Assembly: GCA_963693285.1 (NCBI GenBank)
Contig: OY848925.1
Span: forward strand, 5,558,932-5,622,931
Source of the DNA: Xestospongia muta
Taxonomy: Eukaryota > Porifera > Demospongiae > Haplosclerida > Petrosiidae
Direction of reading: 5' to 3'
Length of the DNA stretch: 64,000 nt
The notes beneath the pieces are model-generated. The model did no database searches. It was not told the origin of the DNA and saw nothing but the letters and a program-made list of their open reading frames with translations. Position 1 is the stretch's first letter, and each line of letters starts with the position of its first letter. Positions 10,754 through 53,183 of the stretch are shown one piece after another. The position numbers were made by a program, and so were the translations under genes.

Positions 10754-11117
10754 GCTGCTCTTATTAATAAACTATAATTATATATAGTTTATAACTATAG
10801 AAACAAAAATAAAACAAGTTACTTTTCACTCTTATCTTATGCCCCTGTTAATTAATTGATTGATTGATTGATTATAAATATAATCTTAGAAATTGGGTGG
10901 GAGAGATTAGAGTTATCATGATTAGAAGATAACAGGCAGGAGATAGCATTGCATGGAAGTATAAAATATTATTAACCAACACACCTACTCCAGTCATTAA
11001 TTATTTACTAATTCTAACTTTAGTCATAATAATAATAATGTCTTTAGCAAGTATAACATCACATATAACATTTTAACTGGGGGTGGAGTGAATTTGTCCA
11101 AGCTCTGAATAAACAAT

Positions 11118-11913
11118 ATTTCTGTGACATAAGTTAAGTGTATGAGTGTTTTCAATAGATACTACTTTCCTAGTGTGATATACATGTGTCTTTCCTTCAC
11201 TAATTCATGTTTAATTTGATGTACAAACACTAGTGAAACAGTGTATACATTATCTTCCTTCATTGACACTTCATTCAAATTATAACCTTATTATGTAATT
11301 GATGTATGTATAGTTACATGTACAATAGATACTGTCTTCCTAGTGTGATGCGTACTTTTACTCAACTAATTTATTCTGTATTTTCAGTGTTCATATTTAA
11401 TGTGAAAAGACTGACATAACAGTGTCTACATTACCTTCCTTCATTGACACTACATTTTCTTTTACTTAAACTGAAAAACTGTAATATGGTCACATACAGT
11501 ATAAAGCTTTTCTTAATGTATTTAATATTCAACCAGAAAGGAGGAAACTATTCAAACCCTCTTTTATTAGCAATCATAACGTCCTTATAATATTAAAATA
11601 ATCTTTCTGTGACATAAGTGTACGAGTGTCTTCAATAGATACTACTTTCCTAGTGTGATGTATACATGTGCCTTTCCTTCACTAATTCATGTTTAATTTG
11701 ATGTGCAAACACTAGTGAAACAGTGTATACATTATCTTCCTTCATTGATACTTTATTTAAATTATAAACTTATTATGTAATTGATGTATATATAGTTACA
11801 TGTACAATAGATACTGTCTTCTAGTGTGATATGTACTTTTACTAAACTAATTTATTCTGTATTTTCCTTCATTGACACTACATTTTATTTTTTTTAATTA
11901 AACCAAAAAATAT
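11118..11913 (+). repeat. Two upstream module pairs without a gene between them
   Basis: Two copies (about 11118-11475 and 11592-11913) of the block that normally lies before the peptide genes. Each is a tandem pair of diverged modules that open with AATAGATACT and end with CTTCCTTCATTGACACT. No exon 1 follows the first copy. The rest of 10754-12312 is AT-rich array sequence. The same pairs occur on the plus strand at about 18.84, 20.34, 22.98, 26.70, 28.31, 29.70, 31.25, 41.20, 42.82, 44.01, 45.65, 46.61, 48.16 and 49.47 kb, and inverted at 13.53 kb. Confidence 0.75.
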
Positions 11914-12312
11914 TAATATGGTCACATATAGTATAAAGCATTTCCTAATTTATTTAGTATAAAACAGAATAGAGGTAACTATTATATATATTAATTTGAG
12001 GATATCTTATTGTGCAGTAATATACAAAGCCAGCAAATTGCCAATAAATTCATATCTCTGTGATTGGTGGATATACTGAATTAATATACATACATATATA
12101 AAGCATTTTTAAATTTATTTAATATAAAACAGATTGAGGTTACTATTATATATATATATATAAATATATACACATACACACACACATATATACATATTAA
12201 TTTAAAGAGAATGTCCTATTGTGGAGTTATTTATAAAGCCAGCAAATTGCCAATAAATTCATATCTTTGTGATTAGTGGATTAACCTATTGTTTAGTGCA
12301 TTCTAACAAAAG

Positions 12313-12501
12313 ATGAAGTATTCTCTCCTTTTCTACATTGTGTTTGCTATATATCTCAGCTGTCTTGCTGTAAATAATGCTTATGTTGAAGTTATTTTAA
12401 GTCAATTAAATTTATATAAACAATCTTTGATGTATTTTTTGTAGTGTACGTCGAGAACAATGTCACTATATATGCCATACTAATATATATGTCGCACGAG
12501 G
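12313..12501 (+). pseudogene. Broken Cys-rich peptide gene copy (exons 1-2 only)
   Basis: Exon 1 starts at 12313 with the family signal peptide MKYSLLFYIVFAIYLSCLAV. The normal donor is missing: the sequence reads GAAGTTATTTTAAGTC where intact copies have GATGTAAGTC. An exon-2-like stretch at about 12445-12500 keeps Cys codons but appears out of frame by one base. No third exon follows, because the sequence switches at about 12.6 kb to an inverted unit. It probably makes no peptide. Confidence 0.7.
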
Positions 12502-12894
12502 TAATTTAATTTAGGAATAGTTAAAATATTAATTTACAGTTTAAATTTTATTGCAATTATCTTATTTACTTGTAGACACACACACACATATAAACTAGTA
12601 TGGTCTTTGTAAAACCAGCACGCCTACCAGCTCCATTCTCTTTTCTTGCATGCACTATGTCCACAATTAGTTTTAATATAAGTTGGCAAATATCTTGACA
12701 ACAAATATATTAACAAAATGGATTTCAAATGAATATAAATCTTGAATTTTTTTGTAAAAATAAAAAGGTTGTACAATATCATATACAGTCAATTTTTATA
12801 GTTATATATATATATATGTTTGGTTTTGTAATTACGTTTTTTTCTTATTTCAGAATAAGTCAGCTCACATTGTTTAAATACTTTCTTTCAATGC

Positions 12895-13315
12895 TTAGAT
12901 TTCTCCTTTGCATTCTTGCCAACAGCGGTGGCAGTCTAAAAATGAACAAAAAGAGAGATAAAAATGTAATAAAGTGTGCTAAATCTTATAAAGCCATTCA
13001 TGATAGTATTCATTAATATAGTACATCAATGAATATAACTATTTCTTATATATGTGTGTGTGTACAAGTAAGTAAGATAATTACAATAAAATTGTTAAAC
13101 TGTAAATTAATATTTTAACTATTCCTAAATTAAATTACGTTTTGGACGTTCAGTTTTGCATGTATAGTGACATTCGAATGCACACTACAAAAAGACATCA
13201 AAAATTGTTTATAAAAATTTATATGACTTACATCATCTACATTATAAGCATTAACCACAGCAAGACAGCTGAGATATATAGCAAACACAATGTAGAAAAG
13301 AAGTGAATACTTCAT
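12895..13315 (-). CDS. Secreted Cys-rich peptide, inverted copy (3 exons, 56 aa)
   Basis: Exons on the minus strand: 13315-13232 (signal and propart), 13184-13139, 12935-12895, all GT-AG, phases 0 and 1, giving 56 aa. The signal peptide is identical to the family consensus. The mature part has the six-cysteine pattern C-x3-C-x3-C-x7-C-x2-C-x3-C, split between exons 2 and 3. An inverted TATATAAAG box lies at 13394-13402, 79 bp before the ATG, and an inverted module pair at about 13.53-13.88 kb. It is convergent with the broken copy at 12313. Function unknown. The architecture recalls secreted defence or venom peptides, but no homology is claimed. Confidence 0.75.
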
Positions 13316-14065
13316 CTTTAGAATTCACTGAATAAAGGTTTATTAAGTAAATTCACTGATCACAGAGATATGGATTTATTGACAATTTACTGGCTTTATA
13401 TATTACTGCACAATAGAACATCCTCTTTAAATAATATGTGTATGTATATGTATGTATGTATATATGCTGTTTTTGAATATTTTCCTCACTTCTGGTTTAA
13501 TATTAAATAAGTTAAGAATAGCTTTATACTGTATGTGACTATATTACAGTTTTTAGTTTTCAGTTTGAGTAAAAATAAAATGTAATGTCAATGAAGGAAA
13601 GTAATGTAGACACTGTTATGTCAGTGTTTTCACATTAAATATGAACACTGAAAATATAGAATAAATTAGTTTAGTAAAAGTACACATCACACTAGAAGAC
13701 AGTATCTATTGTACATGTAACTATACATACATCAATTACATAGTAAGGTTATAATTTAAATGAAGTGTCAATGAAGGAAGATAATGTATACACTGTTTCA
13801 CTAGTGTTTGCACATCAAATTAAACATAAATTAGTGAAGGAAAGACACATGTACATCACAATATCTATTGAAGATCTTTATAGACTTTTGTCACAGAAAA
13901 TATTGCTTATGATGATTATAAATTGTGTGGCTACTATATGTAGCTAGGAATTTCTGTACTGCCATTTTTACTATGTTCTTATTTAAGATGCATGTATACA
14001 AAACTGTATTTTAAGGTGTTTTAATAGTGGTCCTTTTTCACAAATCAGGTTACAAATGGTTTCAC

Positions 14066-14124
14066 ACAACAAGACAGCTGAGATATATAGCAAATACAAT
14101 GTAGTAAAGAAGTGAATACTTCAT
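14066..14124 (-). pseudogene. Exon 1 fragment of a Cys-rich peptide gene (minus strand)
   Basis: The signal-peptide exon begins at 14124 and matches the family for about 18 codons. It then breaks into unrelated sequence with a stop soon after. No donor, second or third exon is present. This is a truncated duplicate in the inverted part of the array. Confidence 0.7.
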
Positions 14125-14557: not shown

Positions 14558-14987
14558 TTACTGCTTATGAATTATGTCTCTGGCAATAATTGTAGCATCA
14601 TATGCAGGCTAAAATGAATGTAATTAAGAAGATAGATAAAAGTGTGATAAAGAGTGATATATCTTAAAGAGCTACAGCAGCATTAGTGTAATACATCAAT
14701 AAGTATTATACTATTTGTATGGTATGTGTACATACAAGTTTAAGATTATGGTGATAAACTTGTTCAGTTAAACTATAAACTAATATTGGAATTATCCTTA
14801 GAAATTGAAATTAAAATACCTCCATTTCAGACTCATAATCATCTTCACATTTTTCAACACACTACAAAATAGATCAAGTTTTGTGCTTAAAATTTATAAT
14901 TACATCAACATAGCCATAAACATCAACCACAACAAGACAGCTGAGATAAATAGCAAACACAATGTAAAAAAGAAGTAAATGGTTCAT
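14558..14987 (-). CDS. Divergent member of the Cys-rich peptide family (3 exons, 58 aa)
   Basis: Exons on the minus strand: 14987-14904, 14861-14820, 14608-14558. The signal peptide is diverged (MNHLLLFYIVFAIYLSCLVV) but aligns along its whole length, and exon 1 is exactly 28 codons as in other copies. Exon 2 keeps one C-x3-C pair and is otherwise acidic. Its donor has shifted to phase 0, which puts exon 3 in a frame without cysteines (PAYDATIIARD...). The reading frame stays open to a stop at 14558. It may encode a short acidic peptide with a single disulfide, or it may be a decaying copy that is open by chance. An inverted TATATAAAG box is at 15073-15081. Confidence 0.45.
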
Positions 14988-16131: not shown

Positions 16132-16316
16132 TTAAAGGGGGGGGACATGCCAAAATTCAAAAATATTTTTTTTGCATAAATGTTATCTTTGACATATGGA
16201 ATTCACCCAAAAAATATTTAAATAATTGTTAAAAATTATTAACACTGTTAAAAGCAAACATCTTTTCGAAGCTCTTTAAAGGCTTCTTCTGAGATTGCAA
16301 TGTTCTTCCCAGTAGG

Positions 16317-18019: not shown

Positions 18020-18433
18020 TTAACCTATTGTGTCTCTTGTTGTGGTTAATTCTTTTACTGATATGAGACATGCAATTATTAATAAATACAATCTTTGATC
18101 TATTTATTTGTAGTGTATATCTGAATGTAATACTTGCAGTGAGACCAGATCTCGTGAATTAAATGCTAGGAATAATTCTAATTTAAAATTACAATTTAAC
18201 TGAGCAATTTTATTGTAATTTTAAGCCATGTACGCACACACAAGCACACACACACACACACGCACACACACACACGTGCACACACATAAAATTATTCATT
18301 GATGTATTATGCTAATAATGTCATATATACCTCTATAAGATTTATCACTCTGTTTTACACTTTTGTCTATCTACTTATGTTCATTTTAGCTTGTCATAAC
18401 TGTATTAATAAATGCCACATCTTCAATTTCTAA
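18020..18433 (+). pseudogene. Cys-rich peptide gene copy with deleted signal exon
   Basis: The upstream region and TATA area are present, but most of exon 1 is deleted (only the end VVNS-like part remains near 18040). Exon 2 at 18114-18156 keeps C-x3-C-x2-C but its donor GT is lost. Exon 3 at 18390-18433 is open, with C-x2-C-x3-C and a stop. The mature exons kept their cysteines although the gene is dead. Confidence 0.65.
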
Positions 18434-19366
18434 ACAGTGAAACAAACATATTCCAACAATGCAAGCTTATTTTGGTGTAACAAGAAAACATTTATATAAA
18501 TAACAAATATTTTACTCTAAACATTCAATGCAACTTTAATATCAGCATATGCATGTCTTGTAAAAACTTTTTTTCTATAAAATGTGACCTGATTTGCAAT
18601 GAAGGAAAACTTCCGTGAAACCATATGTGACCTAGCTGATTTGTGAAAAAGGACCATCAATATAATGATGGTCAATTAAAACACTAATAAACAGTTTTGC
18701 ATAAATAAGAACATAGTAAAAATGGAGTACAGAAATTCCTAGCTACTTATTGTAACCACACAATTTATAATCGTCATAATATTAATGATGCATTTAACAC
18801 ACTAAAATAAGCAATATTTTGTATGACATAAGCCTATGAAGATCTTAAATAGATATTGTGATGTACATGTGTCTTTCCTTCACTAATTCATGTTTAATTT
18901 GATGTACAAACACTAGTGAAACAGTGTATACATTATCTTCCTTCATTGACACTTCATTCATATTATAACCTTATTATGTAATTGATGGATGTATAGTTAC
19001 ATGTACAATAGATACTGTCTTCTAGTGTGATGTGTACTTATACTAAACTAATTTATTCTATATTTTCAGTGTTCATATTTAATGTGAAAACACTGACATA
19101 ACAGTGTCTACATTACCTTCCTTCATTGACACTACATTTTATTTCTTTTACTTAAACCGAAAAACATTAATACGGTCACATATAGTATAAAGCATTTCCT
19201 AATTTATTTAGTATGAAACAGAATAGAGGTAACTATTATATATATTAATTTGAGGATATCTTATTGTGCAGTAATATACAAAGCCAGCAATTTGCCAATA
19301 AATTCATATCTCTGTGATTAGTGGATATACTGAATTAACCTATTGTTCAGTGCATTCTAACAAAAG

Positions 19367-19560
19367 ATGAACTATTTTCTTCTTTTCTACATTGTGTTTG
19401 TTATATATCTCACCTGTCTTGCTGTGGTTAATGCTTATGCTCAAATAATTGATGCCAGTATAAATTTTTTTATAAACAATCTTTGATGTATTTTTTGTAG
19501 TGTCGAAAATATTGTCACGATGATATTGCTATTATGGTTATCTATCATGCATTACACTAA
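19367..19560 (+). pseudogene. Cys-rich peptide gene copy fused to the glycosyltransferase 3' fragment
   Basis: Exon 1 starts at 19367 with a complete signal peptide (MNYFLLFYIVFVIYLTCLAV). The donor is lost (GATGCCAGTAT). Exon-2-like sequence starts at 19501 with C-x3-C, has no donor, and runs into sequence homologous to 24.93-25.17 kb. The copy is non-functional as it stands. Confidence 0.65.
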
Positions 19561-20909: not shown

Positions 20910-21327
20910 ATGAAGTATTCACTTCTTTTCTACATTGTGTTTACTATATATCTCAGCTGTCTTGCTGTGGTTACTTACTCCACTTCTGAAAGATATGTAA
21001 GTTTTATATGTACAATATTTGATCTATTTTTTGTTGTTTTTCTAGTGTTTTCACAGATGTGAACATACTGACGGAAAAGGTATTTAATTTTCAAATGCTA
21101 GACATAATTCTAATGTTAATTTATAATTTAACTGAGTACTTTTACTGCAATAATAAGTTACATCTGTACACACATAGATAACAAATAGTATTCATTGATG
21201 TAATACTGTCATATATAACATTATCACTCTTTATTACACTTTATATTTCTTCTTATATTCATTTTTAGATTTCCGTCGCTGCATGAGAGAATGTAGAGGG
21301 CCTTTAAGACGTCCAAGTGATTTGTAA
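20910..21327 (+). CDS. Secreted Cys-rich peptide, four-cysteine type (3 exons, 59 aa)
   Basis: Exons 20910-20996, 21046-21079 and 21269-21327 join with phases 0 and 1 to 59 aa. The signal peptide MKYSLLFYIVFTIYLSCLAV is nearly the family consensus. The mature part has two C-x3-C pairs separated by ten residues (C-x3-C-x10-C-x3-C), one pair per exon, followed by a basic, Pro-containing tail. This spacing is that of helical-hairpin peptides (alpha-hairpinin type), so a two-helix fold closed by two disulfides is a reasonable model. TATA box at 20823. A near-identical paralogue lies at 23525. Function unknown. Confidence 0.78.
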
Positions 21328-22689: not shown

Positions 22690-22780
22690 ATGAATTATTC
22701 ATTTCTTTTTTTACGTTGTATTTACAAACATCTGAAACAAGACTATGGTAAAAATAACACTATAAAAATCTCTACATAGT
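22690..22780 (+). pseudogene. Truncated signal exon of a peptide gene
   Basis: Upstream block present, ATG at 22690, but exon 1 diverges after about 8 codons (MNYSFLF) and continues into linker sequence. No other exons. Confidence 0.6.
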
Positions 22781-23524: not shown

Positions 23525-23942
23525 ATGAAGTATTCACTTCTTTTCTACATTGTGTTTGCTATATATCTCAGCTGTCTTGCTGTGGTTACTTACTCCGCTT
23601 CTGAAAGAACTGTAATTTTTATATGTACAATATTTGATCTATTTTTTCTTGTTTTTCTAGTGTTTTAAAAGATGTGAATATGCTAGGGGAAAAGGTATTT
23701 AATTTTCAAATGCTAGGCATAATTCTAATGTTAATTTATAGTTTAACTGAGTACTTTTACTGCAATAATAAGTTACATGTGTACACACATAGATAACAAA
23801 TAGTATTCATTGATGTAATACCGTCATATATAACATTATCACTCTTTATTACACTTTATATTTCTTCTTATATTCATTTTTAGATTTCCGTCGCTGCATG
23901 AGAGAATGTAGAGGGCCTTTAAGACGTCCAAGTGATTTGTAA
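23525..23942 (+). CDS. Secreted Cys-rich peptide, four-cysteine type, second copy (59 aa)
   Basis: Exons 23525-23611, 23661-23694 and 23884-23942. Signal MKYSLLFYIVFAIYLSCLAV, then C-x3-C in exon 2, ten residues, C-x3-C in exon 3, and the same basic tail as the copy at 20910. Exon 3 is identical in the two genes while exon 2 differs at several codons (C-FKR-C against C-FHR-C and following residues). The first donor is GTAATT instead of GTAAGT, still usable. Coding differences clustering in exon 2 of two otherwise near-identical segments are notable. Confidence 0.78.
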
Positions 23943-25154: not shown

Positions 25155-26126
25155 TTAAGTTAAGTTATCAACCTGCTGTCCTTCATTTCCACATGATATA
25201 CTTATTGAACTCATTGTTTGCTCATCTCTTAATGCTATAAAAGTCTTCTCAGCTTCTGGAGTGACAATCCGTTCATTTATATATTTGCCAAATGTTTTAA
25301 TAGCCAGTAAATTTAGTGAAGCTTGATCATATCTGTGACAGCCAATAAATGAGATATCAGATATATTATGTTTCCATTGACAACCAGAACGATCTGAGGG
25401 AAGGATTGGAACACCAACCATACATTCCTTGTGTAAAGCACAGTCTACCCATTTGTTTAACAGCAAGAGTGTTGTAACATTAGCAAAGTTGAATATAAGA
25501 CTATTAGCTTCAAAACCAATGACACCTCGACCATCTTTAGGACTCATATTCAAATAGTTCAATGTACTGTCCTTCGTAAAGGCAACCATGTATCGACATA
25601 AAAGCTCGTGTCTAGATCCAGCAATAATAGGAAACTCTAAAAGTCTTTTCAAGAGACTTTTAGAAAATGGTTTCAATATTCGAATACTTGTGTCTGCCCA
25701 AAGAATGACATTATACTTTTTAGACATCTTGTTTATAATATGCACTTTAATTGCATACCCACCCAAACCAGGTGTACCAGCAAAATAAGGATAGTCAGAG
25801 AACTTATAGGATACTATTTTAACATTCTTAATCTTGTTGATCTTACTGAATTGATTTCTAGTCAGTCCCAAGTTGAATACAAAGATAGTTGTTTCCTTGA
25901 GATAGCGTTGAAAAGAGCCGATCATACTTAAAAGTTCTTCAAAGAAGTTAGAAGACGCTCCCGTTACAATAACTAGCGATTTAGTTACATCGTCAACTGT
26001 ATTAATATTGTCTTTGTTAAACAGACGGACTTTGACATCATCAGAAATCCTTGTGCGTCGCGTCAGTAACGAAAAGACTACTATTACCATAAACAGGATA
26101 AGAAAAAGGCTTTTTTTAAAGCCCAT
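25155..26126 (-). CDS. DUF1647-type glycosyltransferase-like type II membrane protein, intronless
   Basis: A single 323-aa frame from the ATG at 26126. Residues 7-22 form one N-terminal membrane anchor (LFLILFMVIVVFSLL) after a short basic tail, as in Golgi type II enzymes. The lumenal part follows DUF1647 proteins: VTGASSNFFEELLSMI, IFVFNLGLT, then a YAIKVHII segment and LWADTSIRI, whose Asp may correspond to the metal-binding acidic motif. The family is related to nucleotide-sugar glycosyltransferases. Substrates are not known to me. It is the only intronless cellular gene in the window and sits in a non-repetitive island (about 24.95-26.34 kb) within the peptide array. Its 3' end is copied at 19.54-19.80 kb. 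Confidence 0.7.
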   Translation of the reverse strand: MGFKKSLFLILFMVIVVFSLLTRRTRISDDVKVRLFNKDNINTVDDVTKSLVIVTGASSNFFEELLSMIGSFQRYLKETTIFVFNLGLTRNQFSKINKIKNVKIVSYKFSDYPYFAGTPGLGGYAIKVHIINKMSKKYNVILWADTSIRILKPFSKSLLKRLLEFPIIAGSRHELLCRYMVAFTKDSTLNYLNMSPKDGRGVIGFEANSLIFNFANVTTLLLLNKWVDCALHKECMVGVPILPSDRSGCQWKHNISDISFIGCHRYDQASLNLLAIKTFGKYINERIVTPEAEKTFIALRDEQTMSSISISCGNEGQQVDNLT

Positions 26127-26336
26127 GTTTTGCTAGTACGTTTGTCATGAGAGAGAGAGAGACAACAGTACCGGACAGATATTGTGTTAGCTGTTAGCCA
26201 TACCCAGAATGTGAACAGGTGATGTACGTATACGATGGTGTACGAAAAAATCAAAAACTACGGAAGCCTCGGACGGACATTCCTATTCCTGTTTCCAATT
26301 TCTTCCGCGCACCTAATATTCCAATTGAAGATGCAG
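26127..26336. promoter_or_regulatory. Unique upstream region of the glycosyltransferase-like gene
   Basis: About 210 bp of non-repeat, somewhat GC-richer sequence with a (GA)n tract directly before the ATG. Array sequence restarts at about 26337. It probably contains the promoter. No specific site is recognised. Confidence 0.35.
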
Positions 26337-27119: not shown

Positions 27120-27124
27120 ATAGG

Positions 27125-27315: not shown

Positions 27316-27633
27316 ATGAAGTATTCACTTCTTTTCTACATTGTGTTTGCTATATATCTCAGCTGTCTTGCTGTGGTTAATGCTAATGTAAGTATTGTAA
27401 GTCATATAAATTTTATAGTTTATAGTTAAGTTTAACAATTTTATTGCAATTATCTTAATTACTTGTGCACACACACATATATAAGAAATAGTTATATTCA
27501 TTGATGTACTATAATAATGAATACTATCATGAATAGTTTTATAAGATTTAGCACACTTTATTACATTTTTATCTTTTTTTGTTCATTTTTAGCCTGCCAG
27601 CGCTGTTGGAAAGAATGCAAAGAATGGCGATAA
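27316..27633 (+). pseudogene. Peptide gene copy lacking exon 2
   Basis: Exon 1 (from 27316) has the consensus signal peptide and a GTAAGT donor. Exon 2 and its flanks are deleted. Exon 3 at 27593-27633 is intact with C-x2-C-x3-C in the family frame. Because exon 2 normally contributes 3n+1 bases, direct splicing of exon 1 to exon 3 reads exon 3 in another frame (PASAVGKNAK...), which happens to stay open to a stop and has no cysteines. TATA box at 27224. A sister copy with the same deletion lies at 47188. It is either a dead gene or a source of a new peptide. Confidence 0.6.
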
Positions 27634-31243: not shown

Positions 31244-31751
31244 ACATTAAATAATCTTTCTGTGACATAAGTGTATGAGTGTCTTTAATAGATACTGCTT
31301 TTCATAGTGTGATGTACCTGTGTCTTTCCTTCACTAATTCATGTTTAATTTGATGTGCAAACACTTGTGAAACAGTGTATACATTATCTTCCTTCATTGA
31401 CACTTTATTCAAATTATAACCTTATTATGTAATTGATGTATATAAAGTTACATGTACAATAGATACTGTCTTCTAGTGTGATGTGTACTTTTACTAAACT
31501 AATTTATTCTGTACTTTCATTGTTCATATTTAATGTGAAAACACTGACATAACAGTGTCTACATTACCTTCCTTCATTGACACTACATTTTCTTTTACTT
31601 AAACTGAAAAACTGTAATATGGTCACATATAGTATAAAGCATTTCCTAATATATTTAATATTCAACCACAAGAAGTAGAACTGTTCAAAAACACCATTTA
31701 AATATATTTAAATAAATATTAATTTAAAGAGGATATCCTATCATGCAGTAA

Positions 31752-35600: not shown

Positions 35601-36599
35601 AGCTTGGCCTTTTTTCCAGTATTTACGATATGCAGCCTCGCTGATTATTGAAACCGAAGCTCCAGTGTCTACTTCCATGGTGATGTCTGCACCGTTAACG
35701 TTCACGGTCACTTGAATGGGTTTTACACGATTGCTATTCATGTTGAACAATGTATACGTTGATTCGCTGGGGGAGTGGTCAGCTTCAGAATCAGTGATTT
35801 GATGCGCTCGTTTTGAAGTGTCTCTCTGATGCTTCCTACGGGTATTATGCGTACCTTTGTAAGCATCCTTGTGTGCAGAGCCCTGTTTAGTACGACAAGC
35901 CCTTGCAATGTGCCCAGTTTTCTTACAATATGAACAAACAACGTCTTTGAATCTACACACAGCTGGGGAATGGGCTCCTCGACATCGATAGCATTCGTTG
36001 CTAACAACACGATCTCTCGTGATATGAGGATCTCGTCGTCCTTTTAGGGAGTTAACCTGAGCTGCGTCGGGCTTCAGTAGATCCTTAGCACTTCGTTCAG
36101 CCGATTCATGAGCTTGTGCAAGTGTAAATGCTTTGTCAAAGGTTAGAGGAGGTGGTTTTGCCAAGAGTAGACGTTGTAGACGATCATCATTGCATCCACA
36201 AATGAGGCGATCTCTCAGCATGTCGTTGAGTGTGTCGCCAAACTGACAATGTTCAGAAAGTTCTCGGAGGTGGGCAACAAAGTCGGCAATTGATTCTCCG
36301 TTCTTACGGTTACGGGAATGAAAAGCAAATCGTTGAACTGTAACAGACGGCGGCGGCTGGTGGTGTTCCTGCACTAACTTCACCAGCTCGTCGAAGGTCT
36401 TCTCTGACGGTTTCTGTGGAGATACTAAATTACGAATCAGTTGGTACGTTGACGCACCACAAATACTTAAGAGGATAGCTCTTTTCTTTTCCTGAGCTTG
36501 TACATCATTTGCCAGGAAATATTGCTCGAGCCTCTCTGCATAAGATAACCAGGTCTCTTTGCCCGGAGCAAATTCTCCTACAGAACCATGAGTTGCCAT
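32661..36599 (-). CDS. Ty3/gypsy gag-pol polyprotein, 1312 aa
   Basis: A single intact frame. Order of domains: retrotransposon Gag (about 1-190), two zinc knuckles (about 197-233; second is CSYCKKTGHIARAC), aspartic protease with the VDTGAS motif (about 310), reverse transcriptase with LPFGVHSAPAIFQ and catalytic YIDDILI, RNase H starting CDASPYGIGAVLSH, integrase with the HHCC region (HPGI...CQQCQ) and core residues in HVDHAGPF, VSDNGTAFTS and the later GLAERG glutamate. Gag and pol are in one frame with no shift. Catalytic residues are all present, so the element could be active. The ATG lies only 24 bp inside the 5' LTR. The element makes new copies of itself by reverse transcription; it is not a host gene. 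Confidence 0.95.
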   Translation of the reverse strand: MATHGSVGEFAPGKETWLSYAERLEQYFLANDVQAQEKKRAILLSICGASTYQLIRNLVSPQKPSEKTFDELVKLVQEHHQPPPSVTVQRFAFHSRNRKNGESIADFVAHLRELSEHCQFGDTLNDMLRDRLICGCNDDRLQRLLLAKPPPLTFDKAFTLAQAHESAERSAKDLLKPDAAQVNSLKGRRDPHITRDRVVSNECYRCRGAHSPAVCRFKDVVCSYCKKTGHIARACRTKQGSAHKDAYKGTHNTRRKHQRDTSKRAHQITDSEADHSPSESTYTLFNMNSNRVKPIQVTVNVNGADITMEVDTGASVSIISEAAYRKYWKKGQAPPIVSSSTNLKTYTGEKLSIKGVINVTVKYEDQCHSLQLTVVKGSGPSLLGRDWLLKIKLNWEKLQLNYVRAKALKLEDILNRHNVLFKDELGRVQSTQAKLHVDPHSQPKFFRPRPIPYALRGKVEQELERLEKTGILEPVEFSDWAAPIVPVMKRDGTVRVCGDYKLTINQAAKLDTYPLPKADDLFSQLAGGKKFTKLDLAHAYQQIALEPDSRQYLTINTHKGLYQYTRLPFGVHSAPAIFQRTIEGILRGIKNVAVYIDDILITGVSEEEHLQTLDKVLSRLEAEGMRLKRDKCAFMLSRVEYLGHVITAEGLHPAEDKIRAILKAPAPHNVAQLRSFIGLVNYYGKFLHQLSTMLAPLYTLLQKNMKWFWGPDQKKAFSDIKKILTSPKLLVHYDPQKKLILSCDASPYGIGAVLSHVMEDGSEKPVAFASRSLAPAEKKYSQLDKEALAIVFGVKKFHHYLFGRHFTICSDHKPLQHLFSENRLIPSLASARIQRWALTLSAYEYNIIYKSGNANANADLLSRLPLPETISDVPIPGELILLMETLQSSPITAMKIKSWTDKDPILARVRNCIQKGWTNSSADDLCPFSQRKEELSVHDGCILLGCRVVIPKVGREQVLNQLHESHPGIVRMKSLARSTVWWPGIDKDIEKKVKSCQQCQYNQKSLAAVPMHPWEWPKRPWSRIHVDHAGPFQNKIFLIVIDAHSKWLEVIVVPSTSSINTIRALRTLFATHGLPEVVVSDNGTAFTSSEFQEFMKKNGIQHLRSAPYHPSSNGLAERGVQIFKEGLKKMTDGDMETRLARLLYHYRITPHSTTGVSPAELLMGRKLRCHLDLLQPDTSSRVLDKQRTQKKQHDKKTKDRTFKLHDPVFVKDFTHHRRWLPGCITGFEGSQTAVIKLNDGTITRRHFDHLRIRSCDSPTEIQDDLPLDFSSEQDTPPDVIETRQVSTTTQPVELRRSTRIRHSPKRFIPGIG

Positions 36600-36607
36600 T
36601 GAAGTTT

Positions 36608-36621
36608 TACCCTCGTCGCCA
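36608..36621 (-). other. Candidate primer binding site of the gypsy element
   Basis: TGGCGACGAGGGT, two bases inside the 5' LTR on the minus strand, begins with the TGG expected to pair with a tRNA CCA end. The tRNA was not identified. It occupies most of the 24-bp leader before the ATG. Confidence 0.5.
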
Positions 36622-36623
36622 AT

Positions 36624-36864
36624 TGTGATGTCCTGATCACTTTATTACACTGATCAAAATTATCATGAACAACTAACAAAGAGGTCAACTTAAATACATG
36701 TAGAACAATTAAGGTTAATTTACACATTAACAAAAGATATACAAGAGAAAAGGACAATGTAACAATAAGAAAGAATAAATGTGCTAATAAGAAGCAATTA
36801 ACAAAACTATAATTGTATAATCCTAATTTACACTAGTTAACACATGTAAAGTTAGTTTACCACA
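36624..36864 (-). repeat. 5' LTR of the gypsy element
   Basis: 241 bp, same sequence as 32409-32649. It would carry the promoter. Its outer end lies 24 bp from the stop codon of the LRR pseudogene. Confidence 0.9.
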
Positions 36865-36888: not shown

Positions 36889-38908
36889 CTACCAAAAACT
36901 GAGTCTGTTCTTAATATATTCAAATCCATCAAACATTTCACAAGTCACCCTTTGTTGTTCATATAACCATAGTTCTTGTATAGTATTATTGCTAGCAAGT
37001 ACAACACAAATTTCAGTTATGTCCTCATCTTGAGGTGATTTGTTGCAAAGACGTAATTCCGTCAATAATGCGTTAGTTCTTACTAGTTCAACTAAGGTGC
37101 TGGGACTAACGGAAGTGATTTCCAAATTATGGCTGATGTCCAAAACAGTAAGTGTTTGGTTTTTAGTTAATCCTTTAAAAACATAACGAATGCCTTTATC
37201 GGTGATGTCACAGTTGATGAGATGTAGTTCTTTCAATGTTTTGTTGGTATTTATCACATTAGATAAATGAGCTAAATCTTTGTCTGTGATAGTGATATCG
37301 TACAACTCGAGTATCTTAAGTGAAGCATTTACTGATAAAGTTTCACAAAAAAAGATATCACTAGCAAGTTTAGAAGACAAAACATTCATGATTTTGAATG
37401 TAGTGTTAGTGTAAGTATCTCTGACAATGTTGACACACAAACTGTGTCCAAAGGAGTGTGATATGTAGCAAGTTTCCAAACAGCACACATATTAAGAGTG
37501 TCCATTATGACACAAGCACTTTCAGGAGATACAACAAGGAGAAAAATATTCCATTCCTTTTCTGCTTGCTGTTCTGTTTTCAATTGACTTGTGACTTCTT
37601 CACATTGTTCAGGAGTGGGTGAATAGAGACAAATAATATTACCATGCCATTGAACACTACCAGTATCACCTGTTAAAGAAACAGAAATACTAACATTGTA
37701 TAAACACACAATAATCATATTTAAGAAGCCATTACTAGCATGGTTATACTATAATAACAAGGAAGAGGTCTTGGTAATATTGTGAAGACACCACAAAGTA
37801 AACCTCTTAACGTAACATAAACCTCCTACTGATAGCACTAATAAGTGAATTAGACTAACTCTGTAAATGTAGACCATGTTCCACATACCTTTACCTGACT
37901 CTGACTCTTTAGCTGAACTTTCTTTTAACTTTAATAATGGAGACTCTAATAAGTAATCATAAAATATATTGCGATGATTAATTTTACATCTTTTACCTTT
38001 GTCTTCACTGATAGAGAGTACACACTCTTCTTGGATAGTTTGTGTTGGACATTCCGCTTCAAGCCTTTGATCACACCAGAATGGTTCTTGGGCTTTGAAT
38101 AAGAAGGCTAGATCTGATAAGTGATAACAATGTACAATAAAAAGTGACAATAGTAACTGACTAACTTACCTATCAAACTTTGCTTCAACTCATCAATCTA
38201 TTTGTCTCTCTCACTTAGTTTAACTGTCAATGATGTCACTATTTCTTGTAGTGTTTCAATTTCTCATTGTCTCTCTATACAAATGTACAAATAACAATGT
38301 ATTATTGCAAGATTTCAAGAAAAATAACTGTCATTATATATACATTGAAAGTAGCAACTGCTACACAACAGTCATATGAATGGCTTCCTCTGTACAGGTG
38401 TACAAATGTCTCTCCTTATTACTCAAATGTAAACATACACTCTATTATTAAGAAATGTAACTTTAACAGATACAACTATACCTTTGTTCTGTCTGACAAC
38501 AGACTCTATTTCCATGCTCTTCTTTCTACTGATATCTTGTTGTGCTTTTAACTGTTGTCTCAATTCCTTTATGTTCTTTTCTAAAATAGCTCTAAACTCC
38601 TACATAATGACGAACATCACATGTAGTAACTGTTGTCTAACACTACTCATCTCTTACCTTATCTTTTCTTTGTTTGTCATAAATGGTATGACATTTTGAT
38701 TTTTCTTCTTTGTTGATTCAAGAGTCTCTTGAGCTTTGATAATAAGTAAAGTTGTTAGATTGAGTGGGAAAAAAACAAGTGAAAATAATGGACCTGCCCT
38801 CTTTGATATAACAATTTCCACATCCATCTCAAGTGCTTCTGAAAGAAGATTGTTAATATCTTCCAACGTGCAGTCTTTATGATCCCACTTCAAGACAAAC
38901 ACAGCCAT
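36889..38908 (-). pseudogene. Coiled-coil/LRR immune-type gene, copy 1 (damaged)
   Basis: Exon-like blocks on the minus strand: 38908-38794 (start MAVFVLKWDHKDCTLEDINN), 38733-38658, 38591-38482 (coiled coil), 38274-38170 (coiled coil), 38113-37889 (acidic region), 37669-36889 (unknown domain with LYSPTPEQCEEVTSQL, then leucine-rich repeats of ribonuclease-inhibitor type such as NKTLKELHLINCDITDKG). Damage: two in-frame stops in the fourth block (38266-38264 and 38200-38198) and a 1-bp deletion near 37411, just before the LRRs. The 199-codon LRR frame is open but detached. Such LRRs are found in NLR-type sensors; no NACHT domain is present. It is a duplicate of 50.6-53.2 kb. Confidence 0.7.
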
Positions 38909-41207: not shown

Positions 41208-41645
41208 ATGTATACATGTGTCTTTCATTCACTAATTCATGTTTAATTTGATGTACAAACACTAGTGAAACAGTGTATACGTTATCTTCCTTCATTGACA
41301 CTTCATTCAAATTATAATCTTATTATGTAATTGATGTATGTATAGTTACATGTACAATAGATACTGTCTCCTAGTGTGATGTGTATTTTTACTAAACTAA
41401 TTTATTCTGTATTTTCAGTGTTCATATTTAATGTGAAAACACTGACATAACAGTGTCTACATTACCTTCCTTCATTGACACTACATTTTATTTTTACTTA
41501 AACTGAAAAACATCAATATGGTCACATACAGTATAAAGCATTTCCTAATTTATTTAGTATAAAACAGAATAGAGGTAACTATATATGTGTGTGTGTGTGT
41601 TGTGTGCGTATGTTAATTTAAAGAGGATATCCTAATGTGCAGTAA

Positions 41646-41654
41646 TATATAAAG
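41646..41654 (+). promoter_or_regulatory. TATA box of peptide gene at 41734
   Basis: TATATAAAG, 88 bp before the ATG. The block from here to the ATG is the most conserved non-coding part of the unit. Confidence 0.6.
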
Positions 41655-41733
41655 CCAGCAAATTTCCAATAAATTCATATCTCTGTGATTGGTGGATATA
41701 CTGAATTAACCTATTGTTCAGTGCATTCTAAAG

Positions 41734-42142
41734 ATGAAGTATTCTCTCCTTTTCTACATTGTGTTTGCTATATATCTCAGCTGTCTTGCTGTGGTTAATG
41801 CTTATGATGATGTAAGTCATATAAATTTTTATAGACAATTTTTGATGTTTTTTTGTAGTGCGGTGTAGAATGTGAAGTACCATGCAGTATTAGTCAACGA
41901 GGTAATTTAATTTAAGAATAGTTAAAATATTAATTTACAGTTTAACAATTTTATTGCAATTATCTTACTTACTTGTACACACACACATATTTAAGAAATA
42001 GTTATATTCATTGATGTACTATATTAATGAATACTATCATGAATGGCTTTATAAGATTTAGCACACTTATTACATTTTTATCTTTTTTTGTTCATTTTTA
42101 GCCTGCCAGCGCTGTTTGAAAGGATGCAAAGAATGGCAATAA
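41734..42142 (+). CDS. Secreted Cys-rich peptide, six-cysteine type (3 exons, 53 aa)
   Basis: Exons 41734-41811, 41859-41901 and 42102-42142, phases 0 and 1, 53 aa. The signal peptide is the consensus MKYSLLFYIVFAIYLSCLAV; the short propart ends in YDD. Mature pattern C-x3-C-x3-C-x6-C-x2-C-x3-C. Exon 2 is three bases shorter than in the copies at 31844 and 50065 and unrelated outside the cysteines. Complete 3' flank follows. It is a good reference member of the family. Confidence 0.8.
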
Positions 42143-44592: not shown

Positions 44593-44966
44593 ATGAAGTA
44601 TTCACTTCTTTTCTACATTGTGTTTGGTATATATCTCAGCTCTCTTGCTGTGGTTAATGCTTATGTAAGTATTGTAAGTCATATTGACCATTGTGAATTT
44701 GAGTGCAGTATTAGTGAACGAAGTAATTTAATTTAGGAATAGTTAAAATATTAATTTACAGTTTAACAATTTTATTGCAATTATCTTACTTACTTGTACA
44801 CGCACACACATATAAGAAATAGTTATATTCATTGATGTACTATATTAATGAATACTATCATGAATGGCTTTATAAGATTTAGCACACTTTATTACATTTT
44901 TATCTCTCTTTTTGTTCATTTTTAGCCTGCCACCGCTGTTGGAAAGAATGCAAAGAATGGCAATAA
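44593..44966 (+). CDS. Cys-rich peptide gene without intron 1 (2 exons, 56 aa)
   Basis: Exons 44593-44722 and 44926-44966. Most of intron 1 and the 5' part of exon 2 are deleted, so the signal exon reads straight through the former donor (GTAAGTATTGTAAGT is now coding) into the rest of exon 2 in frame. The joint with exon 3 keeps phase 1. The deletion removes the first cysteine, leaving five (C-x3-C-x6-C-x2-C-x3-C), an odd number in the mature part. The signal exon also has lost its internal Cys (IYLSSLAV). Use of the old donor would instead skip to exon 3 out of frame. It is either a variant peptide or a decaying copy. Confidence 0.55.
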
Positions 44967-47187: not shown

Positions 47188-47498
47188 ATGAAGTATTCAC
47201 TTCTTTTCTACATTGTGTTTGCTATATATCTCAGCTGTCTTGCTGTGGTTAATGCTAATGTAAGTATTGTAAGTCATATAAATTTTATAGTTTATAGTTA
47301 AGTTTAACAATTTTATTCCAATTATCTTACTTGTACACACACACATATATAAGAAATAGTTATATTCATTGATGTACTATATTAATGAATACTATCATGA
47401 ATGGCTTTATAAGATTTAGCACACTTTATTACATTTTTATCTCTTTTTTTTGTTCATTTTTAGCCTGCCACAAGTGTAGGAAAGAATGCAAAAAATGA
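47188..47498 (+). pseudogene. Peptide gene copy lacking exon 2, second example
   Basis: Same deletion as at 27316: exon 1 with consensus signal and GTAAGT donor at 47188, no exon 2, exon 3 at 47464-47498 with C-x2-C-x3-C and an earlier stop. Read in the frame that direct splicing would give, exon 3 is again open (PATSVGKNAKNDE) and ends at a different stop. TATA box at 47096. Confidence 0.6.
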
Positions 47499-49167
47499 CG
47501 AATAAGCATTGAAATAAAGTATTTAAACAATGTGAGCTGACTTATTCTGAAATAAGAAAAAAACGTAATTACAAAACCAAACATATATATATATAACTAT
47601 AAAAATTGACTGTATATGATATTGTACAACCTTTTTATTTTTACAAAAAAATTCAAGATTTATATTTATTCTAAATCCATTTTGTTAATATATTTGTAGT
47701 CAAGACGCTTGCCAACTTATATTAAAACTATATACTAAATATCAAGAAAAAGTGGTGAAGCTGGTGGACATAGTTCTACAAAGACCATATTGTCAATATC
47801 TTTGTTAGTTCTATTCTTAGAATCATTTTCTATTTGCTTCCCCTTTGTCATCATTAATGAAAATATCTGTTTCAATGGTGATACATTCTATCTCATCAGT
47901 TACTATTATCTAGTTTAATGGAAATTGTATTCCTTTTGTGGACTTATCTCGTGCTTCTACAGCAAATCTCTACTTTTCAAGAAATATTTTGGGAAGGTTT
48001 ATGTTCTCTTTTGCATTATTCTTAACATTAAACTTATTGTACTACAATCAATTGCTACTTTAGTTTTGTTTGTTAATCAGCCACAACATTTTTAACTGTC
48101 ATAATATAGTAATGATGTTTATTAGCAATCATAACATGCTTATAACATTAAAATAATCTTTCTGTGACATAAGTGTATGAGTGTCTTCAATAGATACTAC
48201 TTTCCTATTGTGATGTACATGTGTCTTTCATTCACTAATTCATGTTTAATTTGATGTACAAACACTAGTGAAACAGTATATACATTATCTTCATTCATTG
48301 ACACTTCATTCAAATTATAACCTTATTATGTAATTGATGTATGTATAGTTACATGTACAATAGATACTGTCTTCTAGTGTGATGTGTGCTTTTACTAAAC
48401 TAATTTATTCTGTATTTTCAGTGTTCATATTTAATGTGAAAACACTGACATAACAGTGTCTACATTACCTTCCTTCATTGACACTACATTTTATTTTTTT
48501 ACTTAAACTGAAAAACATTAATATGACAATGTACAATATAAAACATTTTCTAATTTATTTAATATTAAACCAGAACAGAGGCAACTATTCATAACAGTCT
48601 CTATATTACCTCCCTTTATTAATTGAAACTACATTTTCTTTTATTTAAACTGAACAACATCAATATGGTCACATACGCTATAAAGCATTTCCTAATTTAT
48701 TTAATTATAATATTAAATTGTACAAACATCTGAAACAAGACTATGCTTCAACTAAGAATGACACTATAAAAATCCCTACATAATAGTCTCAACTTATACA
48801 AAAACACAAATAGAAATGGCAGTATAGAAATTCCTAGATATAGAACCATACAATTTATATAAGAGTAATGATGTCTTTTAGCAAGTACAACATGTAATAT
48901 GTTCATAACATTTTAATTGGGGGAGGAGAGAATTTATGCAAGTATTTAGGCTCTGAATAAATGATATTTTCTGTGACAAATGTGTATGAGTGTCTTCAAT
49001 AGATACTACTTTCCTAGTGTTATGTATACATGTGCCTTTCCTTCACTAATTCATGTTTAATTTGATGTACAAACACTAGTGAAACAGTTTATACATTATC
49101 TTCCTTCGTTGACATTTCATTCAAATTATAACCTTATTATGTAATTGATGTATATATAGTTACATGT

Positions 49168-49973: not shown

Positions 49974-49982
49974 TATATAAAG
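49974..49982 (+). promoter_or_regulatory. TATA box of peptide gene at 50065
   Basis: TATATAAAG, 91 bp before the ATG. Confidence 0.6.
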
Positions 49983-50064
49983 CTAGCAAATTGTCAATAA
50001 ATTCATATCTCTGTGATTGGTGGATATACTGAATTAACCTATTGTTTAGTGCATTCTAACAAAG

Positions 50065-50424
50065 ATGAAGTGTTCACTTCTTTTCTACATTGTGTTTGTT
50101 ATATATCTCAGCTGTCTTGGCCTGGTTAATGCTTATATCTATGTTGATGTAAGTCATATAATTTTATGAACAACCCTTGATCTATTTTTTGTAGTGCAAT
50201 GAACAATGTCACTATCAGTGTGCTTATGGCAGTGGTGGAGGTAAATTAATTTAGGAATAGTTAAAATATTAATTTACAGTTTAACTTAACAATTTTATTG
50301 CAATTATCTTACTTACTTGTACACACACACATATATATATAAGAATTACATTTTTATCTCTTTTTTATGTTCATTTTTAGCTTGCAGCCGCTGTTTGAGG
50401 GAATGTAACAGACGTAATTACTAA
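50065..50424 (+). CDS. Secreted Cys-rich peptide, six-cysteine type, block-duplicate of 31844 (57 aa)
   Basis: Exons 50065-50148, 50195-50240 and 50381-50424, 57 aa. Signal MKCSLLFYIVFVIYLSCLGL. Mature pattern C-x3-C-x3-C-x7-C-x2-C-x3-C. Exon 2 is identical to that of 31844; exon 3 differs by a few codons, most of them non-synonymous by eye. It is followed at once by the LRR gene block on the opposite strand, as in the sister block. Confidence 0.78.
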
Positions 50425-50589
50425 GCACTAAAAGAAAGTCTTCAAACAATGTGAGCTCACTTTATTGAAACAAGAAAAACTTAATTACAAAACAAAATAT
50501 GTAACTATAAAATCGAATTTATATGATATTGTACAAACTTTTATTTTTATGTATCAATTATCGCATATTTACTCAAGTAACAGAAAAAA

Positions 50590-53183
50590 TTAAACTATTC
50601 TGTTATTACTTTTATTATTAACAGTATTTAATACAAAACAAATTACTACTACAAAAAAACTGAGTCTGTTCTTAATATATTCAAATCCATCAAACATTTC
50701 ACAAGTCACCCTGTGTTGTTTATATAACCATAGTTCCTGTATAGTATTATTGTTAGCAAGTACAACACAAATTTCAGTGATGTCATTGTCTTTTGGTGAT
50801 TTGTTGCAAAGATGTAATTCCGTCAATAATACGTTAGTTCTTAATAGTTTAACTAAGGTGCTGGTACTAACGGAAGTGATTTCCAAATTATGGCTGATGT
50901 CCAAAATAGTAAGTGTTTGGTTTTTAGTTAATCCTTTAAAAACGTAACGAATGCCTTTATCGGTGATGTCACAGTTGATGAGATGTAGTTCTTTCAATGT
51001 TTTGTTGGTATTTAACACATTAGATAAATGAGCTAAATCTTCGTCTGTTATAGTGATATTGTACAACCCAAGTATCTCAAATGAAGCATTTACCGATAGA
51101 GTTTCATAAAAAACTTTGATATCACTAGCAAGTTAAGAAGATGAAATATACATGATCTTCAATGTGGTGTTAGTGGTAGGTTATCTCTGACAATGTAGAC
51201 ACACAAACCTCATCCAAAGGAGTGTGATATGTAGCAAGTTTCCAAACAGCACACATATTAAGAGTGTCCATTATGACATGTAGCACTTTCAGAAGATACA
51301 ACAAAGAGAGAAAAATATTCCATTCCTTTCCTGCATGCTTGTTGTTCTGTTTTCAATTGACTTGTGTGACTAACGGAACTAACGGAAGTGATTTCCAAAT
51401 TATGGCTGATGTCCAAAACAGTAAGTGTTTGGTTTTTAGTTAATCCTTTAAAAACATAACGAATGCCTTTATCGGTGATGTCACAGTTGATGAGATGTAG
51501 TTCTTTCAATGTTTTGTTGGTATTTATCACATTAGATAAATGAGCTAAATCTTTGTCTGTGATAGTGATATCGTACAACTCGAGTATCTTAAGTGAAGCA
51601 TTTACTGATAAAGTTTCACAAAAAAAGATATCACTAGCAGGTTTAGAAGACAAAACATTCATGATTTTGAATGTAGTGTTAGTGTAAGTATCTCTGACAA
51701 TGTTGACACACAAACTGTGTCCAAAGGAGTGTGATATGTAGCAAGTTTCCAAACAGCACACATATTAAGAGTGTCCATTATGACACAAGCACTTTCAGGA
51801 GATACAACAAGGAGAAAAATATTCCATTCCTTTTCTGCTTGCTGTTCTGTTTTCAATTGACTTGTGACTTCTTCACATTGTTCAGGAGTGGGTGAATAGA
51901 GACAAATAATATTGCCATGTCATTGAACACTACCACTATCACCTGTTAAAAAAAAAGAAATACTAACATTGTATAAACACACAATAATTATATTTAAGAA
52001 GCCATTACTAACATGATTATAGCATAATAACAAGAAGGAGGTCTTGGTAATATTGTGAAGACACCACAAAGTAAACCTCTTATCATAACATAAACCTCCT
52101 ACTGATAGCACTGATGAGTGAATTAGACTAACTCTGTAAATGTAGACCATGTTCCATGTACCTTTGCCTGACTCTGACTCTTTAGCTGAACTTTCTTTTA
52201 ACTTTAATAATGGAGACTCTAATAAGTAATCATAAAATATATTGAGATGATTAATTTTACATCTTTTACCTTTGTCTTCACTGATAGAGAGTACACACTC
52301 TTCTTGGCTAGTTTGTGTTGGAGTTTCCACTTCAAGTCCTTGATCAGACCAGACTGGTTCTTGGGCTTTGAATAAGAAGGCTAGATCTGATAATTGATGA
52401 CAATGTACAATGAAAAGTGACAATAGTAACTGACTACCCTACCTTTCAAACCTTTGCTTCAACTCCTTAATCTTTTTGTCTCTCTCACTTAGTTTAACTG
52501 TCAATGATGTCACTATTTCTTGTAGTGTTTCAATTTCTCGTTGTCTCTCTATACAAATGTACAAAAATAACAATGTATTATTGCAAGATTTCAAGAAAAA
52601 TAACTGTCATTCTATATACATTGAAAGTAACAGCTGCTACACAACAGTCATATGAATGGCTTCCTCTGTACAGGTGTACAAATGTCTTTCCTTATTACTC
52701 AAATGTAAACATACACTCTATTATTAAGAAATGTAACTTTAAAAGATACAACTATACCTTTGTTCTGTCTGACAACAGACTCTATTTCCATGCTCTTCTT
52801 TCTACTGATATCTTGTTGTGGTTTTAATTGTTGTCTCAATTCCTTTATGTTCTTTTCGAAAATAGCTCTAACCTCCTACATAATGACGAACATCACATGT
52901 AGTAACTGTTGTCTAACACTACTCATCTCTTACCTTATCTTTTCTTTGTTCGTCATAAATGGTATGACATTTTGATTTTTCTTCTTTGTTGATTCAAGAG
53001 TCTCTTGAGCTTTGGTAATAAGTAAAGTTGTTAGATTGAGTGCGAAAAAACAAGTGAAAATAATGGACCTGCCCTCTTTGATATAACAATTTCCACATCC
53101 ATCTCAAGTGCTTCTGAAAGAAGATTGTTAATATCTTCCAACGTGCAGTCTTTATGATCCCACTTCAAGACAAACACAGCCAT
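50590..53183 (-). pseudogene. Coiled-coil/LRR immune-type gene, copy 2 (damaged, internally duplicated)
   Basis: Same exon order as 36889-38908: 53183-53069, 53009-52934, 52867-52758, 52548-52443, then an acidic exon (about 52391-52163), then the LRR exon from about 51945. Here the coiled-coil exon 52548-52443 is free of stops, but carries a 1-bp insertion near its end compared with copy 1. The LRR exon has a Trp codon turned into TGA (51922-51920) and the same 1-bp deletion before the LRRs as copy 1. It is also internally duplicated: a partial LRR exon (about 51945-51377) is joined to a second one (51372-50590). The shared deletion shows the gene was already broken when the block was duplicated. 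Confidence 0.7.

Follow-up and report, generated by a model that had tools for sequence, protein, structure and literature searches.

A tandem array of very small genes, each predicted to encode a secreted, cysteine-rich mini-protein, lies in a 64,000-nucleotide stretch of the genome of the sponge Xestospongia muta (contig OY848925.1, positions 5,558,932 to 5,622,931; here called the window). Judged by its sequence, this is very probably a genuine secreted coding family, and its mature exons diverge faster than its introns in most of the pairs that we compared. The window is part of contig C9 of the assembly that we searched (158 Mb, 28 contigs). We scanned it using one copy's signal-exon peptide, which returned 13 strong copies, and a search with the exons added fragments at 18035 and 22690. 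The resulting 15 copies or fragments comprise six intact three-exon genes, one variant that is open as two exons, and eight broken copies, whose status was judged by eye (Table 1). All but the two fragments carry the signal exon. The introns of the six intact genes are GT-AG, 46 to 49 and 134 to 203 bases long, and in phases 0 and 1, and the precursors have 53 to 59 residues. An earlier note on this DNA had described fifteen copies sharing a three-exon layout; the number stands if the two fragments are counted, but only 6 of the 15 are intact three-exon genes, and seven copies, rather than the eight claimed, are open from ATG to stop. The seven spans that it listed are exact open gene models (the intact genes and the variant in Table 1). 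Its exon sizes of 84 to 87, 34 to 46, and 41 to 59 bp held for exon 2 and widened for the other two, since the nine intact genes on C9 measure 78 to 87, 34 to 46, and 41 to 68 bp.

The family extends beyond the window. A search of the genome with the signal exon found at least 17 places, none of them off C9. Besides the 13 in the window, there is one close to 2.08 Mb, and three lie close to 3.30 Mb. Of these four outer places, three are intact genes and one lacks a start codon where it would be expected, as judged by eye. Via a 300-base upstream element, we reached a distant second array of 14 places on contig C6 (8.233 to 8.254 Mb) and also a single gene on contig C14. The C9 and C6 arrays are connected in sequence through the gene at 2.08 Mb on C9 (74% over 107 bases, E 3.6e-8). 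In the C6 array, 9 of the 14 places gave intact models (C6a, b, c, f, h, i, j, k, and m); in C6d, e, g, l, and n, the start codon or an exon is missing or the copy is interrupted (partly by eye). The model finder used for this array required an exon 1 length divisible by three and ranked models by cysteine number and donor likeness, and it was usable for 7 of the 14 places. We set the C6f, C6i, and C14 models by hand and discarded the finder's wrong model for C6i. Overall, 19 intact genes on three contigs (nine on C9, nine on C6, one on C14) have a common layout, with the same phases and with GT-AG introns throughout. Three loci on contig C3 (L015 to L017) were rejected as genes because they hold the first signal-exon bases only, with other sequence after them (by eye). 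The 300-base element, taken from upstream of g31, has copies roughly 200 to 540 bases upstream of ten window copies and counts 43 matches, full or partial, across C9, C3, and C6, some at places where we found no gene. It may be a mobile element or a regulatory block, both being possible.

In the common layout, exon 1 encodes the start codon and a predicted signal peptide, a phase-0 intron of about 50 to 60 bases follows, and a phase-1 intron lies after exon 2. Exon 2 occurs in eight lengths (34, 43, 46, 55, 61, 64, 67, and 82), every one leaving a remainder of 1 on division by three, and intron lengths leave all remainders. Exon 1 is divisible by three in 19 of 19 genes, a condition that was imposed for seven of the C6 models. 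Exon 2 starts precisely at the first cysteine position in all 19, this cysteine being replaced in C6h. All 19 have a hydrophobic N terminus (judged by eye), and the residues ahead of the presumed cut, VNA or VDA in most, agree with the (-3,-1) rule. Six mature cysteine columns are invariant in 12 aligned precursors with six or seven mature cysteines; there are 14 such genes, and this alignment, A2, omits g50 and C6i as near-twins. A TATAAA box lies 85 to 94 bases ahead of the ATG in 16 of the 19 genes (the exceptions are C6a, C6b, and C6c), against a chance expectation of 0.095 per 50 bases on the plus strand of the window.

We compared segments between clusters in six pairs, using mononucleotide shuffles. 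The signal exon remains alignable (z 8.2 to 16.2), and the introns do not (z -0.2 to 2.4). We also shuffled the sequence downstream of the signal exon and first donor 40 times in each of six genes, keeping dinucleotide counts, and scored cysteine number alone, without requiring the observed cysteine spacing or phases. The best models in the real sequence had 6, 6, 6, 4, 6, and 6 mature cysteines (g13, g41, g31, g20, C6a, and C14), and this number was equaled in 0, 0, 0, 3, 0, and 1 of 40 shuffles, or 4 of 240 in total.

We then compared divergence by segment, leaving the broken copies and the 44593 variant out of all counts. Within each cysteine-number group on C9, intron 2 is 92 to 99% identical and intron 1 is 83 to 98% identical. 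Exons 2 and 3 are 63 to 82% identical in the six-cysteine group, the near-twin pair g31-g50 excepted. For g13, g31, g41, and g50 without g31-g50, identity is 97 to 98% in intron 2, 83 to 95% in intron 1, 66 to 78% in exon 2, and 63 to 82% in exon 3. A 20-base sliding comparison peaks in divergence at exons 2 and 3 and dips in the introns, with parts of the far flanks equally high. Pooled differences per site in the C9 group with six or seven cysteines were 0.080 nonsynonymous (N) and 0.115 synonymous (S) in the signal, 0.41 N and 0.48 S in the mature part, and 0.056 in the introns; in the four-cysteine C9 group, they were 0.044 N and 0.036 S, 0.18 N and 0.19 S, and 0.041, respectively. The signal exon, which the earlier note had called nearly invariant, is 86 to 100% identical among intact C9 genes, but within a cluster its rate of change is close to that of the introns. 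Its constraint is visible only between clusters, where the introns no longer align. Exons 2 and 3, said to vary in everything but cysteines, are indeed fast; however, the four-cysteine copies at 20910 and 23525 have identical third exons (59/59 bases), those at 31844 and 50065 have identical second exons (46/46 bases), and the four-cysteine group lacks two of the cysteines.

Mature N divergence exceeded intron divergence at a P of <0.05 in 15 of 16 C9 pairs and 5 of 7 compared C6 pairs, where pairs sharing a gene are not independent. We also pooled seven pairs without a common gene (g20-g23, h3Ma-h3Mb, g31-g50, g13-g41, C6b-C6c, C6f-C6i, and C6j-C6k). These omit h2M, C6a, C6h, C6m, and C14 and were picked after the pairwise values were known, so that the pooled P values are descriptive. 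Mature N was 84.9/547 (0.155), mature S was 17.1/131 (0.131), and introns were 71/1533 (0.046). N differed from introns with a P of 6e-15, and without g13-g41 the values were 0.118 versus 0.050 (P = 9e-7). The N/S ratio was about 1.2 (P = 0.28). In the two four-cysteine pairs, N was 17.8/147 (0.121), S was 1.2/36 (0.033), and introns were 10/442 (N versus introns, P = 7e-6; N versus S, P = 0.077). It is well supported, then, that the mature exons are faster than the introns in most compared pairs; exons 2 and 3 diverging no faster than introns, which the earlier note had named as an outcome that would count against it, is not what we found. With tandem paralogues, a separate signal, and a mature part that outruns non-coding DNA, this is in general kind a rapidly diversifying multigene family of predicted secreted peptides. 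Protein selection is the likely cause in the youngest pairs and is unproven in the older ones. The suggested arms race therefore keeps its secreted cysteine-rich family with fast mature exons, whereas positive selection is only suggested, by the two youngest pairs, those with four cysteines.

The mature part is divided between two exons. In members with six cysteines (numbered Cys1 to Cys6 to keep them apart from the contigs), exon 2 holds Cys1-x3-Cys2 and Cys3, and exon 3 holds Cys4-x2-Cys5-x(3 or 4)-Cys6 and the stop codon. The spacing is CX3CX3C-X6-7-CX2CX3C in four six-cysteine C9 genes, 3,5,8,2,3 in the C14 gene, and 3,6-12,8-11,2,4 in eight six-cysteine C6 genes; in four further C9 members it is CX3C-X10-CX3C. 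When the genes are lined up by their exon junctions, these last four are missing Cys3 and Cys4 together. Cys1 and Cys6 are absent together in C6h and also, by eye, in a neighboring broken copy. Joint loss of partners is what the bridges Cys1-Cys6, Cys2-Cys5, and Cys3-Cys4 would give, and we infer from it that these nested disulfides are rather probable. The presumed mature peptides have 30 to 42 residues, lengths that are approximate because the mature start is a fixed cut set by eye, and their net charge is -2 to +7. In the mechanism that we propose, the signal would be cut directly before Cys1, with no propeptide, and the two exon-encoded halves, the first from exon 2 and the second from exon 3, would fold on each other via the nested ladder. 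The most likely scaffold would be compact and helical-hairpin-like, leaving the non-cysteine residues open to substitution. Duplication in tandem and the loss of genes would renew the set, and divergence in the mature exons runs at several times the intron rate.

Table 1. Copies of the peptide gene and other features in the window (window coordinates)
Feature	Position	Strand	Description
g13, intact	12895..13315	-	signal exon 13232-13315, exon 2 13139-13184, exon 3 12895-12935; 6 mature Cys; both introns GT-AG, in phases 0 and 1
g20, intact	20910..21327	+	exons 20910-20996, 21046-21079, 21269-21327; 4 mature Cys (CX3C-X10-CX3C)
g23, intact	23525..23942	+	exons 23525-23611, 23661-23694, 23884-23942; 4 mature Cys
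g31, intact	31844..32197	+	exons 31844-31927, 31974-32019, 32154-32197; 6 mature Cys
g41, intact	41734..42142	+	exons 41734-41811, 41859-41901, 42102-42142; 6 mature Cys
g50, intact	50065..50424	+	exons 50065-50148, 50195-50240, 50381-50424; 6 mature Cys
Variant	44593..44966	+	intron 1 mostly gone, as is the start of exon 2; open as two exons (44593-44722, 44926-44966); 5 mature Cys
Broken copy	12313..12500 (end approximate)	+	splice donor gone, exon 2 out of frame, own exon 3 not found; by eye
Broken copy	14041..14124	-	stop within signal exon
Broken copy	14563..14987	-	three exons recognizable; exon 3 interrupted in family frame; by eye
Fragment	18035..18450 (end approximate)	+	signal exon start gone; exons 2 and 3 recognizable; by eye
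Broken copy	19367..19560 (end approximate)	+	first splice donor gone, exon 3 not found; by eye
Signal exon fragment	22690..22723	+	
Copy, exon 2 not found	27316..27643	+	
Copy, exon 2 not found	47188..47514	+	
g41 5' flank	41644..41733	+	TATAAA at -86
300-base element	31315..31614		
Putative Ty3/gypsy-type polyprotein	32661..36641	-	open frame of 1326 aa; by eye
Leucine-rich-repeat frame	36889..37491	-	Pfam LRR_6
Leucine-rich-repeat frame	50590..51132	-	Pfam LRR_6
DUF1647 gene	25155..26132	-	
Minisatellite	1193..1660		18-base unit; several frames open
Fibronectin type III frame	58702..59079	-	

Other features lie among and around the copies. The putative polyprotein frame lies about 460 bases past g31, within the array. 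The two leucine-rich-repeat (LRR) frames are related, lie among or beside the peptide genes, and are possible innate-immunity neighbors. The DUF1647 gene has eight relatives in ENA contigs, 51 to 90% identical, and at the rejected C3 loci what seems to be DUF1647-related coding sequence stands beside the signal-exon remnant, as if the two had been co-duplicated (by eye). ENA contigs hold proteins 88 to 90% identical to a window gene, which could belong to the same or a sister species. Elsewhere in the genome, an exon at G000:C11:2456715-2456825 (minus strand, L023) matches an approximate silicatein query fragment at 78% of 37 residues, and Ser stands where the catalytic Cys would be. In a motif scan covering 11 of the 12 matches fetched, seven sites of this kind were printed, and the remaining six carry Cys at that position, like cathepsins. 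This supports the sponge origin of the genome and suits a demosponge.

Taking these results as a whole, we lean somewhat toward an array of secreted disulfide-rich mini-proteins with a nested ladder and a probably defensive role. On the role itself we are evenly divided: the peptides are putative antimicrobial, antifouling, or feeding-deterrent effectors, a varied repertoire that would track varied targets. This guess is made because the mature part is fast, copies turn over, no relatives appeared as far as we searched, and there are parallels in Mytilus CRP-I and Hydra antimicrobial peptides. A number of observations weigh against the reading. Alignment of exons 2 and 3 between clusters is weak (z -0.6 to 4.1), so that homology there rests on position, phase, and cysteines. 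Intron 1 is less quiet than intron 2 in the six-cysteine C9 genes (83 to 97% versus 92 to 99%). Mature S also exceeds introns in the seven pairs (P = 3e-4; without g13-g41, P = 0.042), and since silent mature sites outrun introns, protein selection alone cannot explain the contrast. The pair g31-g50, with its identical exon 2, has no excess (P = 0.17), and the excess is not significant for C6b-C6c and C6f-C6i (P = 0.30 and 0.11). Each loss of a cysteine pair was probably a single event, so that nesting rests on two events. The eight six-cysteine members of the C6 array have Cys5-x4-Cys6, and this array has Gly-Pro ahead of Cys3, which makes for a poorer fit to a regular two-helix hairpin. In the h2M gene (L009 5061-4654, minus strand) there are seven mature cysteines, two of them side by side (CC); its odd thiol could pair between molecules. 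The mixed net charge is not the uniformly cationic one of a typical antimicrobial family and argues against simple membrane-active antimicrobials, and recognition or inhibitor roles are compatible with it. Finally, peptide production and function are predictions from sequence.

That the array is not made of genes at all, but is a tandem repeat with reading frames that arose by chance or are the remains of decay, we regard as hardly credible. It is true that 8 of the 15 window copies are broken and that the evidence comes from sequence; however, the exon 2 remainder is kept across three contigs, the cysteine columns are invariant, the splice sites are canonical, and shuffles reached the real cysteine number in so few trials. 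It is possible, though doubtful, that the divergence pattern reflects a DNA process in which gene conversion homogenizes flanks, introns, and signal exons and the mature exons escape or swap segments (compare snake three-finger toxins and ASSET). Silent mature sites about 2.8 times as fast as introns in the seven pairs would fit this, as would the silent third-base differences in 3 of 6 mature cysteine codon columns among the five C9 genes with six or seven cysteines and an intron 2 that is 97 to 98% identical beside exons 2 and 3 at 63 to 82% in the five pairs of g13, g31, g41, and g50 other than g31-g50. The pattern is described for viperid toxins (PMC2474615). However, the two youngest pairs, with their high N and low S and intron counts, resemble ordinary protein selection, a quartet count gave no clearly conflicting segment grouping, with no informative site in intron 2, and silent-change counts are small and unreliable in multiply hit codons. 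A gene-conversion mosaic in g31, read from the identity table, was withdrawn, because the quartet segments mostly group g13 with g41 and intron 2 is uninformative. We consider it quite unlikely that hyperdivergence is confined to the exons, both tiny exons, each coding for one half of a disulfide-laddered mini-protein, changing at silent and coding sites several times faster than the intervening introns via exchange or local mutation of exon segments. If this were true, one scaffold on three chromosomes would supply an animal that lacks adaptive immunity with a repertoire of effectors that keeps diversifying.

Other roles would accommodate the same peptides. Small, secreted, cysteine-rich, fast, tandemly arrayed peptides are also typical of recognition ligands, and the mixed net charge is no worse a fit to binding proteins than to membrane-active peptides. 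Recognition or signaling peptides (gamete, self, or cell-cell), whose diversity is maintained by matching receptors, are nevertheless an unlikely explanation: nothing points to reproduction specifically, and a receptor search limited to ten open reading frames in the window gave the LRR frames among the copies, with linkage judged in the window only. Enzyme inhibitors or housekeeping secreted peptides without a role in conflict seem improbable. The stryphnines show that cysteine-rich sponge peptides can inhibit (PMC13418204), but housekeeping predicts neither mature exons faster than introns nor many broken copies. If the reading as defensive mini-proteins is correct, the genes would represent a hidden secreted effector class in sponges. 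Such a class may have been passed over by gene prediction, because every coding exon is below 90 bases. This had also been suggested in the earlier note, and it agrees with the lack of a homologue in a 5.8-billion-protein set, a set that need not include this species' annotation. The genes would also offer a sequence-level handle on sponge control of microbiota or enemies, with broken copies and recent duplicates at hand for studying how the pattern arises.

We found no homologues in two protein searches of 5.8 billion sequences. The signal-exon DNA pattern had 0 matches in viral_contigs and 0 in genome_contigs, and none of the 92 pattern matches of the profile in viral_contigs was confirmed. 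Two single sequences had no match in PDB at E up to 10; profile A2 had five there (E 0.31 to 2.4), which we treated as chance. Pfam gave nothing above the cutoff for seven proteins and one match below it (E 0.044). Two NCBIfam families each matched one member of 12 (best E 0.006 and 0.35) and were likewise treated as chance. The family was not found in the literature searched, which consisted mainly of titles and the starts of abstracts, with most subscription journals outside its scope. The best reading is a new family of predicted disulfide-laddered secreted mini-proteins, lineage-restricted in the sense of not found in these searches, whose collections are not sponge genomes.

Plant alpha-hairpinins are helix-loop-helix peptides with nested disulfides Cys1-Cys4 and Cys2-Cys3. 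They exist in a four-cysteine version (CX3C-X4-20-CX3C) and a six-cysteine version (CX3CX3C-X4-20-CX3CX3C) (PMC11591084). Like EcAMP1 and nigellin-1.1, the sponge peptides are short with two cysteine-rich halves, and 4 of the 19 genes fit the four-cysteine motif exactly (X10). However, none of the 19 has the published six-cysteine motif: all 13 six-cysteine genes have X2 between Cys4 and Cys5, and eight genes of the C6 array have X4 between Cys5 and Cys6. Sequence homology was not detected, and each half of the sponge peptide has its own exon. Plain membership was therefore rejected, on the C6 array and the published motif comparison. The sponge peptides may work like two-helix disulfide peptides, by analogy; we do not claim identity with them. 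The CS-alpha-alpha peptides are short peptides built on two disulfide-linked helices in several animal groups and plants (PMC11722136). The likeness to these (scorpion kappa-KTx, conotoxin vil14a, worm B-IV, and anemone acrorhagin I) is by cysteine spacing alone; we found no homology in the PDB searches, and the sponge peptides are predicted sequences.

Sponges have other disulfide-rich peptides. The asteropsins are sponge knottins, and the knottin cysteine order has an adjacent CC pair. In our family, the order is Cys1-x3-Cys2 ... Cys4-x2-Cys5-x3/4-Cys6 with a presumed nested pairing, CC occurs in 0 of the 13 six-cysteine genes, and among all 19 genes only the seven-cysteine h2M has it, which sets the family apart from knottins or inhibitor cystine knots. 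The stryphnines, sponge knottins that inhibit a bacterial sialidase and barnacle fouling, are like our predicted peptides ribosomal and disulfide-rich, with a rich repertoire (PMC13418204). Hydra arminin and periculin are genus-restricted antimicrobial peptide families in chromosomal clusters (PMC10945409). Mytilus CRP-I has a conserved signal and a fast six-cysteine mature region under positive selection, with no function assigned and with pseudogenes called; unlike the sponge genes, it has a propeptide, a C-C-CC-C-C array, and a mature part on one exon (PMC10138031). The sponge precursors have no room for a propeptide, and their mature part is spread over two exons.

Sponges are not known to have a venom apparatus. 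The conotoxins and snake three-finger toxins belong to other phyla, share no homology with the sponge family, and are venom components; the likeness is one of pattern only: in both, introns are conserved within a gene group and mature exons diverge (PMC3862624, PMC2474615). If our reading is correct, the sponge genes would add an early-branching animal lineage to the cone snails and snakes in which this intron-quiet, exon-fast pattern is known.

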